From: Fimbriimonas sp.
GTDB taxonomy: Bacteria; Armatimonadota; Fimbriimonadia; Fimbriimonadales; Fimbriimonadaceae
Reading direction: 5' to 3'
Assembly: GCA_031292555.1 (NCBI GenBank)
Contig: JARLGV010000002.1
Coordinates: 1 to 35,755, forward strand
Length of the DNA stretch: 35,755 bases
Position numbers and translations under genes: made by a program. This document shows positions 30,491 to 35,521 of this stretch, piece by piece. The notes beneath the pieces are model-generated. The model ran no database searches. It saw only the letters and a list, made by a program, of their open reading frames with translations, and was not told the DNA's origin. How positions within the stretch are numbered: position 1 is the stretch's first letter; each line of letters starts with the position of its first letter.

Positions 30491-32266
30491 CTACTGGCTG
30501 GAGCCTAACTCTTTTACAAGGTCGCCGACGAACTTCTTGGCGTCGCCAAAAAGCATGAGGGTGTGATCCATCGTGTAGAGGGGGTTGTCGATGCCGGCGA
30601 AGCCGGCGGACATCGATCGCTTGATGACCATGACCGTGCGGGCCTTGTCGGTATCGATGATCGGCATGCCATAGATCGGGCTGGTGGGGTCGTTGCGGGC
30701 ATCCGGGTTCGTCACGTCGTTCGCGCCGATGACCAGCGCGACGTCGGTCTGAGGCATCTCCGGATTGATGTCGTCCATTTCAACCAACTTGTCGTACGGA
30801 ATATCCGCCTCGGCAAGAAGCACGTTCATGTGGCCGGGCATACGTCCCGCAACCGGGTGAATCGCGAACTGGACGTTCACACCCTTCTTGGTGAGAGCAT
30901 CGTACAACTCGCGAACCTTGTGCTGGGCCTGGGCGACGGCCATACCGTACCCCGGGACGATCACGACCGAAGTCGAGTTGCCGAGAATGGCAGCGGCCTC
31001 TTCGGCGCTTGCGCTCCGAATCGGCTTTTCCTCGCCAAGCGCCTTCCTCTCCTGCGGCTTGCCGAACGCGCCGAACAGAACGTTCGCGAACGACCGGTTC
31101 ATCGCCTTGCACATGATGATGCTGAGGATCAAACCGCTGGAGCCGTCGAGGGCGCCGGCGATGATCAGCATCGGGCTGTTCAAAACAAAACCCATCGCAC
31201 AGGCGGACAGACCGGCATAGGAGTTCAAGAGGGAGATGACGGTCGGCATGTCCGCGCCACCGATCGGGATGACCAAGAGAACACCGAACAGAAGCGCCAA
31301 GGAACAGAATCCGACGTACAGGGGCCAGGTCGTCGGGCTGGCGACAACGCCGCCGATGCAGACCACGGCAACCGCGAATAGCACGAGGTTAACCGCATTC
31401 TGCCCCTTGTAGGTGATCGGACGGCCGGGCAGAATCTCCGCGAGCTTTCCGAACGCGATGAGCGAACCGGTGAAGGTGACGAAGCCGAGGAGGACTTCGA
31501 AGCCGATGATGCCGACGGTGACATTGCTGATTGCGAGGTCGCCGGTTCTTCCGATTCCCAGGAAGTATTCGGACGTACCGACCAGGCCGGCGGCCAAACC
31601 GCCGAATGCGTGGGAGAACGCGGTTCGTTGCGGAACGGCGGTCATCGGAACAAGGGAGATCGGATAGCCGATGATGGCGCCAAGCGCGAGAGCGGCGGCG
31701 ATGTATCCGTAGGCGGGAGTGTGTCCCAGGCGGGTCAATTCGGGATCGTTCGAGAGCGCGAGCAGCGTGCCGCCGATCGCCATGAACATGGCGAGCTCAC
31801 CCGCGGCAACGCTCTTGCGAGCGGTCGTCGGGTGGTTCATCCATTTCAGCGACATCACGAATAGGCCGGAGGCGACCAGGTAGGTGAGGTCAGTCGTCCA
31901 TTGAGACTGAACGTCGACCGTCCCGGAGGCTAACGCCGCCAGCACGAAGACTGGGAAGATCACACCGTGAGCCGCCCCGGCGCCCGGTGTGCGCGTCTTG
32001 AACATCTTGAGCATTCGGTCGGTGATCAAGAAGCCGGAGACGACGTTCGTCATCGATGCGACGACCGCGATCGCGCCAAGGGTGATGGACAACGTATTCT
32101 CGGCCCGGCCGAGAATCGTCAACGAACCGACGAGCGAGATAGCCGAGATGGCGTTCGTCAGCGACATCAAGGGCGTGTGCAGCAGCGGAGACACACGGCG
32201 GATGACTTCGAGACCCAAGAAGGTCGCAAGCAGGAAAATAAACAGGTTGGAAAAAAGGGCACTCAT
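30491..32266 (-). CDS. pntB: NAD(P) transhydrogenase, fused PntAB-PntB (domains II and III)
   Basis: A 591-residue membrane protein of the proton-translocating transhydrogenase, which reduces NADP(+) with NADH using the proton gradient. Residues 1-105 match the short PntAB subunit (LFIFLLATFLGLEVIRRVSP, LHTPLMSLTNAISAISLVGS, NVVSGFLITDRMLKMFK). From about residue 115 the sequence is PntB: several membrane helices including MTAVPQRTAFSHAFGGLAAG. The NADP(H)-binding domain III then follows with VVIVPGYGMAVAQAQHKVRE, GRMPGHMNVLLAEADIPY and MIIKRSMSAGFAG-like VIKRSMSAGFAGIDNPLY. Its ATG overlaps the pntA stop by 1 nt (TAATG). In Rhodospirillum rubrum AB and B are separate, and in E. coli AB is joined to PntA, so this join is a different arrangement. 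Confidence 0.93.
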   Translation of the reverse strand: MSALFSNLFIFLLATFLGLEVIRRVSPLLHTPLMSLTNAISAISLVGSLTILGRAENTLSITLGAIAVVASMTNVVSGFLITDRMLKMFKTRTPGAGAAHGVIFPVFVLAALASGTVDVQSQWTTDLTYLVASGLFVMSLKWMNHPTTARKSVAAGELAMFMAIGGTLLALSNDPELTRLGHTPAYGYIAAALALGAIIGYPISLVPMTAVPQRTAFSHAFGGLAAGLVGTSEYFLGIGRTGDLAISNVTVGIIGFEVLLGFVTFTGSLIAFGKLAEILPGRPITYKGQNAVNLVLFAVAVVCIGGVVASPTTWPLYVGFCSLALLFGVLLVIPIGGADMPTVISLLNSYAGLSACAMGFVLNSPMLIIAGALDGSSGLILSIIMCKAMNRSFANVLFGAFGKPQERKALGEEKPIRSASAEEAAAILGNSTSVVIVPGYGMAVAQAQHKVRELYDALTKKGVNVQFAIHPVAGRMPGHMNVLLAEADIPYDKLVEMDDINPEMPQTDVALVIGANDVTNPDARNDPTSPIYGMPIIDTDKARTVMVIKRSMSAGFAGIDNPLYTMDHTLMLFGDAKKFVGDLVKELGSSQ

Positions 32267-33393
32267 TAGGAACCGGCCTCCCCTAAGCCGAGCTTCTGGC
32301 GAACTTGCGGATGAACGACTTCGCCATCCTTCGCGATCAACGAGCCCGAAACGATGGGATCCTCAAGATTCAGTGCCAATTGGCCGTCCTTGACCATGTT
32401 CAGGAGAAACGTCTGAATGTTCTTGCTGAATAGCTGACTTGCGTGGGTCGCCAGGTTCGACGACAGATTGACCGGACCGCAAATCTTGACGCCGTTATGC
32501 ACGATCGTCTTCCCTGCTTCGGTCAGCTCGCAGTTTCCGCCGCGCTCGGCGGCGATATCAACGATCACCGAGCCGGGAGCCATGCGCTCGGCCATAGCCG
32601 TAGTGATCAGGATCGGCGCTTTCATGCCGGGGATCGCCGCCGTCGTGACGACGAGATCCATTTCCGCAAGCACGTCTCCAAGGAGTTGGCGCTGCTTCGC
32701 GTAGAACTCTTCGCCCATCGCCTTGGCGTATCCTCCGGCCGTTTGGGAGTCGCCCGTTTCCAGAGGCAGCTCGACGAATCGAGCGCCCAAGCTCTCAACC
32801 TGCTCTTTCACAACCGGACGCACGTCGTATGCGGCGACAACCGCACCAAGGCGCCGCGCGGTAGCGATCGCCTGCAAGCCGGCAACACCGGCTCCGAGAA
32901 TCAGAGCTTTGGCGGGGGCCAGGGTTCCGGCCGCCGTCGTCATCATCGGCAGGATCTTCTTGAGTTCGGTCGATCCGATGAGAACCGAGAGATATCCGGC
33001 GAGGTTCGCCTGAGAGGAGAGCACGTCCATTGCCTGGGCGCGCGTCGTGCGCGGAACCATGTCGAGGGAGAAAATCGTCGCTCCCGTCGCGGCTGGCACT
33101 TCGGACGGAAGAGAAAGCGGATCGAATACCGCGATGCTCAACTGCCCCTTCTTTAGCGGGATCGTCGGGGGTCTGATCGAAACGAGCACATCGGCACGGT
33201 TCGCAATATCTTCCTTGGTTACGACTTCAGCGCCATTATCCTTGTACGCTTGATCCAGGATGCCTGCGGAAACTCCTGCGCCGGATTCCACCAGGACATC
33301 GAGCTTTGCCTTCTTGAGTGCGGCGACGCCAACAGGCACCAGCGCCACCCTTTGTTCGCCTGCGGCAACTTCACGCAACACGCCGACTATCAT
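32266..33393 (-). CDS. pntA: NAD(P) transhydrogenase subunit alpha, NAD-binding domain I (PntAA)
   Basis: A 375-residue soluble subunit that binds NAD(H) and hands hydride to domain III of the partner. It starts MIVGVLREVAAGEQRVALVP and has the Rossmann motif LILGAGVAGLQAIATARRLG with AAYDVRP near residue 190. The RQD-loop-type region KQRQLLGDVLAEMDLVVTTA and VIVDIAAERGGNCELTEAGK follow. There is no membrane segment at the C-terminus, unlike E. coli PntA, because that part is on the downstream protein. GGAGG at 33400-33404 lies 6 nt before the ATG, one of the strongest ribosome binding sites in the window. It is the first gene of a two-gene operon. Confidence 0.95.
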   Translation of the reverse strand: MIVGVLREVAAGEQRVALVPVGVAALKKAKLDVLVESGAGVSAGILDQAYKDNGAEVVTKEDIANRADVLVSIRPPTIPLKKGQLSIAVFDPLSLPSEVPAATGATIFSLDMVPRTTRAQAMDVLSSQANLAGYLSVLIGSTELKKILPMMTTAAGTLAPAKALILGAGVAGLQAIATARRLGAVVAAYDVRPVVKEQVESLGARFVELPLETGDSQTAGGYAKAMGEEFYAKQRQLLGDVLAEMDLVVTTAAIPGMKAPILITTAMAERMAPGSVIVDIAAERGGNCELTEAGKTIVHNGVKICGPVNLSSNLATHASQLFSKNIQTFLLNMVKDGQLALNLEDPIVSGSLIAKDGEVVHPQVRQKLGLGEAGS

Positions 33394-33501
33394 ATATATC
33401 CTCCATCGTCAACCCCTCGTTGGGCTCCCGTCCGTCCACTCGGCTTCGAGTGAATTTTTGAAGCAGAAACTCAACGCATTTTGGACATCCGAGTCGGTTC
33501 A

Positions 33502-33510
33502 AGCATATCA
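33502..33510 (-). promoter_or_regulatory. Possible extended -10 promoter of pntA
   Basis: On the minus strand TGATATGCT fits an extended -10 element (TGnTATNNT), about 110 nt upstream of pntA. No good -35 is seen. The long leader would leave room for regulation. Low confidence. Confidence 0.3.
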
Positions 33511-33588
33511 CACCGCAAAAGACTATAAGTTCTTGCCTAAAAATAGAGTGCGACGAAGCACCCATTACTTTTGACTTATGCCACGAAA

Positions 33589-33819
33589 ATGTCGGGAGAT
33601 GCATTTAACGAACGCAGACGGAAAGTCCGGGAGATTGGACGGAGGGCCAATGCGATTGTTGCCGCCGTATCTCACCAATTCGCCGAAAACCTAACGGCAT
33701 TCCGAAAGACCGGAAAAACTGCGGGCTCTCGCAGCGGCGATGAGGGCCGGAGAAATCGCCAAACCACCCACGCGCCCTGGGCGTGGGCCGCTCATCTCGG
33801 CGGCTATGCAAAGCGATGA
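33589..33819 (+). CDS. Doubtful small hypothetical protein
   Basis: A 76-residue frame beginning MSGDAFNERRRKVREIGRRA. The first 45 residues could form a basic amphipathic helix; the rest is Arg/Gly/Ser-rich and ends GGYAKR. An in-frame TTG lies at 33571. There is no ribosome binding site and no third-position GC bias, and I recognise no family. It may be chance. Confidence 0.2.
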   Translation: MSGDAFNERRRKVREIGRRANAIVAAVSHQFAENLTAFRKTGKTAGSRSGDEGRRNRQTTHAPWAWAAHLGGYAKR

Positions 33820-33943
33820 TCCGGACGTGGTCCTAAATCCGAATGCGCGAATGCGCCCAAGATGCCGCAACATCCATTCGGGAGTTCCGAATACAGTACT
33901 AGCGGCAATACGCGCCGGAGGGAGCGATGAGGTCGCGATGGTT

Positions 33944-34336
33944 TCAATCGGGTGGAGCGATGCGAGCCCGCACGGTTCGGGTGACCTCGATGAGGGCAGA
34001 GAACTCGACTGGCTTCTGCAGGTAGGCCATCACGCCGAGTTTCGTCATACCGTCCCTTTCCTCGGGCGATACGTCCCCGCTGATGATCACCACCGGTATC
34101 GACGCGGTTTCAGGGTCACGCCGGAGCCTCTCCAAAACGTCTCGGCCGTGGACTCCGCGTACATGGAGATCCAGCAAAACGAGGTGCGGCTCAACTTCAT
34201 GCACCAAGCTCATACCGGTCTCGACATCTGGGGCCGCATAGCACCGAAAGTCGTCGAGATACTCGAACAGCTTGACGATGACCTTCCGGTTCAACTCGTC
34301 GTCTTCGATATAGATCACGCGGAGGATTGAGTCCAT
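33944..34336 (-). CDS. Single-domain response regulator (receiver domain only)
   Basis: A 130-residue stand-alone receiver. It begins MDSILRVIYIEDDELNRKVI, which gives the acidic pair E-D-D. The phosphoacceptor aspartate is in LVLLDLHVRGVHGRDVL, the conserved Ser in VVIISGD, and the lysine in AYLQKPVEFSAL. All switch residues are present and there is no output domain, so it likely acts in a phosphorelay or by protein contact like CheY or Spo0F. I start at ATG 34336; a TTG two codons earlier (34342) is the alternative. No kinase gene is in the window. It lies just downstream of the terminator of the small-peptide gene and so has its own promoter. Confidence 0.9.
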   Translation of the reverse strand: MDSILRVIYIEDDELNRKVIVKLFEYLDDFRCYAAPDVETGMSLVHEVEPHLVLLDLHVRGVHGRDVLERLRRDPETASIPVVIISGDVSPEERDGMTKLGVMAYLQKPVEFSALIEVTRTVRARIAPPD

Positions 34337-34406
34337 TCCCAAAGTGCCGTCGGAGTCCCGTGCCCAATAGGATGATAATGCACAGATCGACTTTTCGAGT
34401 CTCTAG

Positions 34407-34448
34407 AAAAAAAAAGAGTCTGCGGACCCAACGCTCGGCTCCGCAGAC
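34407..34448 (-). terminator. Strong intrinsic terminator of the 27-residue peptide gene
   Basis: On the minus strand GTCTGCGGA and TCCGCAGAC (arms 34440-34448 and 34418-34426) form a perfect 9-bp stem with a 13-nt loop, followed after 2 nt by nine T residues (34407-34415). It begins 11 nt after the stop codon of the tiny gene at 34460. This is a textbook Rho-independent terminator. Confidence 0.9.
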
Positions 34449-34459
34449 CAGATATCCCT

Positions 34460-34543
34460 TTAGTTTCCTTTACCAGTGCCTGTATCGGTCGCACCGGCAT
34501 GTTTCTTAACGTCTGCAGACCTGAGAGTTCTCTTACCATCCAT
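34460..34543 (-). CDS. 27-residue hydrophilic peptide, unknown function
   Basis: A very short gene read on the minus strand. The peptide begins MDGKRTLRSADVKK, continues HAGA and ends TDTGTGKGN. It is basic, lacks hydrophobic segments and cysteines, and has no signal peptide. The case for translation is strong for its size: AGGGAGG at 34552-34558 lies 8 nt before the ATG, and a strong terminator follows the stop by 11 nt, so the transcription unit is neatly closed around it. It could be a peptide signal, a leader peptide, a RiPP-like precursor, a ribosome- or RNA-binding micro-protein, or part of a dual-function sRNA. No maturase or transporter lies nearby. It sits between a response regulator and a small membrane protein. 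Confidence 0.6.
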   Translation of the reverse strand: MDGKRTLRSADVKKHAGATDTGTGKGN

Positions 34544-34649
34544 TTCCGCTGCCTCCCTGGCGAAGAAGCGCATACGAATCGGTCGAAATCGTTGCTCGTG
34601 CCGGCCGGGGTTCCATTTGACTCACGATCATGCGGCTGGATCCAATACG

Positions 34650-34787
34650 CTAATTCGCCCGGCGTGATAGGGCAATGAGTATCACGCCAATCCCAAATGC
34701 GAGGGCCGTGACCCAAGCGAGCACAGGTAGAAAGTCGAGAGTCCTATCGAGCCCATAGCCGTTGTCTGGATTCAGCTTTGCGATCAT
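34650..34787 (-). CDS. 45-residue single-span membrane protein
   Basis: A small gene on the minus strand. The N-terminal 20 residues are polar (MIAKLNPDNGYGLDRTLDF). They are followed by one hydrophobic helix, LPVLAWVTALAFGIGVILIAL, and a basic end SRRAN. The positive-inside rule predicts the N-terminus outside and the C-terminus in the cytoplasm. There is no good ribosome binding site before the ATG; a GTG lies one codon upstream. It is 106 bp upstream of the 27-residue peptide gene on the same strand, so the two may share a transcript. I recognise no family. The coding claim rests on the membrane segment and clean frame only. Confidence 0.45.
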   Translation of the reverse strand: MIAKLNPDNGYGLDRTLDFLPVLAWVTALAFGIGVILIALSRRAN

Positions 34788-35184
34788 CACGAGGCGAACC
34801 GCAACTGGGCTGCTGCAGGAAGCCTGGCAAGAACGATACGACAGAAAATGGGGCTATGCCAAGAGCGTCCATCGCCGCCAATCGGTCTGTCCTGAGGCGC
34901 CGTTGGCGCCGGCGTCGCAGCACTTGCACAGGCCTTCCCGCACGAACCCTATGCGCCCTTTGCTCCACTTTACGTACCACATTACTTTTCACGCCAACTG
35001 CCACCTCCGCCGACCATGTTGGGCCAGTCCAAAGCGGCAAGCTTGGGGCACGCAAAGACGCGATGAGCGCAAAGGAGATGCCGCCTGATGGAACCGCCCT
35101 TCGCAAGGGTAATGTGCTTGTCAGGTCGGGTGAGGAAACGTTGCCCCACGAATGGCGTAGTGCCGCGTTTGTACCCAAAAGGAG
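34788..35184. other. Gap between the small membrane gene and tRNA-Phe, no confident gene
   Basis: A 397-bp stretch downstream of the tRNA pair. A plus-strand frame from 34853 encodes 117 residues with a basic start and a weakly hydrophobic segment. It runs antisense into tRNA-Phe, has only a weak GGGG before its ATG and shows no family similarity, so I do not call it. Minus-strand frames here also enter the tRNA. A promoter for the small genes could lie here but none is obvious. Confidence 0.4.
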
Positions 35185-35260
35185 TGGTGCCACAGCCCGG
35201 ACTTGAACCGGGGACCCTAGCATTTTCAGTGCTATGCTCTACCGACTGAGCTACCGCGGC
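35185..35260 (-). tRNA. tRNA-Phe (anticodon GAA)
   Basis: A 76-nt tRNA with encoded CCA on the minus strand. Acceptor GCCGCGG pairs with CTGTGGC with two G-T pairs; the D stem is GCTC/GAGC. The anticodon stem TAGCA/TGCTA encloses CTGAAAA, and the T arm is CCCGG-TTCAAGT-CCGGG. The discriminator is A, as usual for Phe. It follows tRNA-Asp by 15 nt and is probably cut from the same transcript. Confidence 0.97.
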
Positions 35261-35275
35261 ACACAAAAGGAAAAG

Positions 35276-35351
<76 letters not shown>

Positions 35352-35362
35352 GAACGAATAAA

Positions 35363-35391
35363 AGTATGGCAGGGTCGGTCCTAAATGTCAA
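35363..35391 (-). promoter_or_regulatory. Sigma-70-type promoter of the tRNA-Asp/tRNA-Phe unit
   Basis: On the minus strand a perfect TTGACA (35386-35391) is separated by 17 bp from CATACT (35363-35368). The mature tRNA-Asp begins 11 nt beyond the -10 box. Spacing and hexamers are close to consensus. Confidence 0.8.
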
Positions 35392-35492
35392 GCCCTAAGC
35401 CCTAACAAGCGTGAAACTACTCTCGACGGGCATAGTTTGCAAGCAACCAGCAAATACACCAGGCGCGCAATCGATTTAGGTTCAGATACCAA

Positions 35493-35521
35493 AATGGGCC
35501 GGACAAAACGCCCGGCCCATT
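35493..35521 (-). terminator. Intrinsic terminator of the right-edge response regulator
   Basis: AATGGGCCGG and CCGGCCCATT form a perfect 10-bp stem with a 9-nt loop. On the minus strand it is followed by a run of four T residues (TTTTGG context). It lies 30 nt after the stop of the response-regulator gene and separates it from the tRNA promoter. Confidence 0.8.

Follow-up and report, generated by a model that had tools for sequence, protein, structure and literature searches.

Is the 27-codon open reading frame that ends just ahead of an intrinsic terminator in this Fimbriimonas genome a small protein gene, part of a regulatory RNA, or an accident of sequence? The window, i.e., the whole stretch of DNA that was analysed, is 35,755 nt long and makes up one whole contig of a genome of 6.46 Mb in 140 contigs.

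Signals of the minus-strand unit

The sequence-only reading had described AGGGAGG 8 nt before an ATG, 27 codons, a TAA and, 11 nt past the stop, a perfect 9-bp hairpin with nine U residues. All of these elements are present, and all lie on the minus strand, which that reading had not named. The Shine-Dalgarno (SD)-like AGGGAGG, read directly at 34552-34558, stands 8 nt 5' of the start codon of the ORF MDGKRTLRSADVKKHAGATDTGTGKGN (34460-34543; ATG at 34543, TAA at 34462-34460), and 11 nt separate the stop codon from the terminator stem. The AGGGAGG:anti-SD duplex has a calculated energy of -10.9 kcal/mol, which in the window only pntB equals (-11.3 kcal/mol), with pntA next (-9.3 kcal/mol), and the duplexes of most window genes are weaker than -5 kcal/mol; the translation signal is thus, as had been claimed, among the best in the window. 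Among the long genes, pntA and pntB (30491-33393, minus strand) have the strongest SD sites, most others being weak. An alternative in-frame start, ATG 34573, would extend the product to 37 aa and has no SD sequence before it.

SD-led short ORFs are not rare, with six in the window when both strands are considered and genes are counted in. The geometry is far less common: an ATG ORF of 8-60 codons with an SD of equal strength that ends no more than 60 nt from the stem occurs in 0.55% of dinucleotide shuffles, and in 1.15% if GTG and TTG starts are also allowed. Because a strong-SD ORF is found just before the terminator in so few shuffles, a small transcription unit is likely here. Two other frames occur on the same strand. 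A 133-codon open frame (34315-34716) overlaps the 27-codon ORF in another frame, crosses the terminator and ends within the downstream response regulator gene; it is probably a chance frame. Upstream, a 46-codon GTG ORF (34650-34790) includes one strongly hydrophobic stretch (MMIAKLNPDNGYGLDRTLDFLPVLAWVTALAFGIGVILIALSRRAN) and yields no significant family match.

The terminator hairpin (34418-34448) consists of a perfect 9-bp outer stem, GTCTGCGGA (34448-34440) paired to TCCGCAGAC (34426-34418), enclosing a loop region of 13 nt in which a further 4-bp helix is predicted; the stem is followed by TC and then by nine T residues, read directly at 34407-34415. Folded with its tail (34404-34448), it has a predicted energy of -23.0 kcal/mol vs. 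-10.3 ± 2.4 kcal/mol for shuffles (z -5.3), and on the complementary strand no T tract follows the hairpin. Under our strict criteria, no other terminator of this grade lies outside the coding sequences of the 35.8-kb window, in line with the earlier claim that the termination signal ranks with the best there. Since the same criteria return only about 20 terminator-like matches in the window and the genus DNA combined (353 kb), and several comparable genus terminators sit some 20-50 nt past the stop codon of a gene, the signal is meaningful, and its predicted stability makes the hairpin a convincing intrinsic terminator. Published 3' terminators average -20.2 kcal/mol and 7.6 bp, and 5' regulatory terminators -16.5 kcal/mol and 7.0 bp (PMC2965389); next to these means, a 9-bp, -23 kcal/mol stem looks more like a 3' terminator. 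A search of the genome contigs for the exact stem gave no match.

The coding frame itself is less typical of the host. Its GC3 is 38% vs. 73% for the genes of the window, 96% of 26-codon fragments of real genes have a higher codon score, and shuffles without stops reach the score of the frame in 17% of cases; at 26 codons, the codon-usage test is a weak one. Such atypical codon usage speaks weakly against a gene that has long been coding; a young ORF, a leader peptide or the absence of any gene would all fit it.

A scan of the region for sigma-70-like promoters returned two matches vs. 0.9 expected; the tRNA-Asp/Phe operon lies 740 nt upstream of the unit on the same strand; the scan detected no good promoter close upstream of the unit, and promoter types used in this phylum may fall outside its scope. 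As the scan gave no such promoter and a response regulator gene follows on the same strand after 70 nt, the unit may not be the self-contained gene that had been proposed.

An accessory interval and its neighbours

The 27-codon ORF had been placed beside one single-domain response regulator, with another at the window edge, and both are there. RR1 (33944-34336, minus strand; start ATG 34336 or TTG 34342; Pfam Response_reg, E 2.2e-17) is a plain receiver domain encoded 70 nt downstream of the T tract; RR2, at the edge, is conserved in relatives. The relatives also retain pntAB and the tRNA-Asp/Phe pair; the flanks are conserved, and the ORF region is absent. In the relative G019, RR1 was not found at the syntenic place, and the genes in the interval from the tRNAs to pntA resemble, by our own reading of the sequences, threonine synthase, homoserine kinase and transporter genes; they take the place of RR1 and the ORF. 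Because G019 has other genes here, sequence comparison marks the 1.8-kb interval from pntA to tRNA-Phe as accessory. When the DNA from 33400 to 35500 was searched in the genus, only the tRNAs, an insertion sequence (IS) remnant and the edge of pntA matched. Homologues of the response regulator were considered as a source of related leaders; they are at most 44% identical (best segment, named genomes) and are scattered over phyla, so they offer no orthologous leader for comparison. Another contig of the same genome (G000:C121:1-89, L168) starts with a 99% identical tRNA-Asp; either the gene is present twice, or the assembly broke at a repeat.

Searches of 61 relatives and of 291 phylum genomes (20 genomes of the genus among these) gave no homologue of the peptide, and neither did phages, plasmids or PDB sequences; the peptide matches no family in Pfam, PHROGs or NCBIfam. 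Matches at E 0.04-2 within the genus, family, order and phylum were rejected as chance, some of them containing internal stops. No Rfam family scores above its gathering score in the unit, the best below it being Xoo2 (E 1.5); a covariance model (R1) built from the single sequence of the unit matched convincingly only in its own genome, and the ORF/terminator arrangement has no convincing match in the 19 other genomes of the genus. The sequence-only reading had looked to tblastn for a frame conserved beside response regulators and to a covariance search for the stem in related genomes. Neither expectation was borne out: no homologous locus turned up in the genus or phylum, and the conserved-frame test, with no frameshifted copy to count against the peptide either, therefore neither supports nor formally refutes a micro-protein. 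The proposed signalling or regulatory micro-protein is left without support, nothing having tested positive for it, and is not formally refuted either; a cellular function of the peptide is likewise not supported. Since no relative carries the ORF, an ordinary young small gene, a small RNA or a leader is probable, rather than a conserved signalling peptide.

On the tRNA side, 60 bp at 35106-35165 are what remains of an ISL3-family IS at its 3' end, assigned by a Pfam DDE_Tnp_ISL3 match (E 5.6e-12) in L186, and because this remnant adjoins the tRNA, the region appears to be rearranged. The 27-codon ORF was considered as a part of such an element and rejected, as the likeness of the remnant to other copies stops short of the ORF. 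Six genomes of the genus have this IS end, or the 25-bp motif that terminates it, at a distance of approximately 4-330 nt on the downstream side of tRNA genes (window 35106-35165; L169, L172-L175, L178, L180, L182, L184-L192, L195-L197), behind Val, Phe, Ala, Leu, Gln, Tyr/Thr, Ile, Ser, Pro, Gly and Lys isotypes. Its orientation is one and the same wherever a tRNA is in reach; these ends are often found at contig ends, and several of the genus members that carry them 3' of tRNA genes have large genomes. This ISL3-family element seems to prefer tRNA-downstream sites.

Alternative readings of the unit

With RR1 encoded in the same orientation 70 nt further on, a leader or attenuator role also comes into question. 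A segment within the ORF, TCTGCAGAC (34511-34519, minus strand), is a possible antiterminator: apart from one mismatch it resembles the terminator's 3' arm, and its predicted duplex with the 5' arm spans 9 bp, one of them G-U. The stretch GGTCTGCAGAC, in which this segment lies, and GGTCCGCAGAC in the 3' arm are identical but for a single base. Such a near-repeat arises in 0.035% of ORF shuffles, by a criterion chosen post hoc, and the strength of the duplex with the 5' arm is reached in 1.3% (ORF) to 3.9% (131-nt leader) of shuffles. In the predicted folds, a transcript ending before the 3' arm adopts the antiterminator and the complete transcript the terminator; the nascent RNA could form either. 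A ribosome crossing the ORF would cover the segment 34519-34511 and free the 5' arm, leading to termination; with no ribosome there, or a stalled one, transcription would more readily read through into RR1. Like the leader-peptide attenuators of trp, his and ilv operons, the locus combines an SD-led short ORF, a predicted overlapping alternative pairing, an intrinsic terminator and, further down the same strand, a gene that it might regulate. Unlike them, this unit has no run of control codons (KK is the only pair), a terminator stabler than typical 5' terminators, no covariation or conservation found in the search for it, and, in the place of their downstream biosynthetic operon, a single-domain response regulator. 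Moreover, the leader minus its terminator is no more structured than shuffles (z -0.96), and another terminator candidate in the window, one within a coding region, is preceded by a duplex that is just as strong. An attenuator of RR1 is thus unlikely, and the specific proposal that the 3' arm of the terminator is copied within the micro-ORF, whose translation decides transcription of the response regulator, is slightly more doubtful still.

A transcript with no functional ORF, in which the 27-codon frame is a chance occurrence, is nearly as likely as the small-gene reading. The RNA could be a small RNA or a read-through end closed by a real terminator, for instance that of the tRNA-Asp/Phe operon, which lies upstream on the same strand and has the region's best promoter-like match. 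The non-host codon usage, the lack of a peptide homologue in the genomes searched, the chance origin of SD-led short ORFs and the rearranged region marked by the ISL3 remnant beside the tRNA all fit such a transcript. Against it stand the low odds (0.6-1.2%) that an SD-led ORF would by coincidence stop so shortly, 11 nt, ahead of the terminator, the failure of the unit to match a known RNA family, and an RNA that, outside the terminator, has no excess structure. Dual-function and stand-alone small RNAs share with this locus a short terminated transcript, here a predicted one, with an SD-led ORF; unlike for them, no promoter, target or RNA family came to light for it. That everything is chance, with neither transcript nor peptide being real, is very improbable: no conservation and no promoter were found, but a terminator at z -5.3 with a nine-T tract, in a genome with few terminators, argues strongly against it.

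A proposed species-specific small gene

The reading that we prefer, tentatively, is a species-specific (young or orphan) small gene: a short minus-strand unit with a strong-SD 27-codon ORF and a genuine intrinsic terminator, sitting in the accessory 1.8-kb stretch between pntA and tRNA-Phe. It has the layout of orphan small protein genes with their own terminator, namely, a strong SD, an ATG, a short frame, a stop and a terminator 11 nt on; unlike in those genes, the codon usage departs from that of the host, and translation of the ORF is a prediction. In this small gene, a short minus-strand transcript would run through the ORF and stop at the terminator, the ORF would probably be translated whenever its RNA is made, and the terminator would hold transcription of the unit back from RR1, 70 nt downstream. 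We infer transcription, translation and this insulation of RR1 from the placement of the signals.

Were the attenuator to prove true, it would bring translation-coupled control of a response regulator to a phylum with little RNA biology. If the 27-codon ORF of the small gene is translated, the locus would add one lineage-specific microprotein. For now, the locus mainly illustrates that local signals, however good, do not amount to a functional peptide when conservation is missing.
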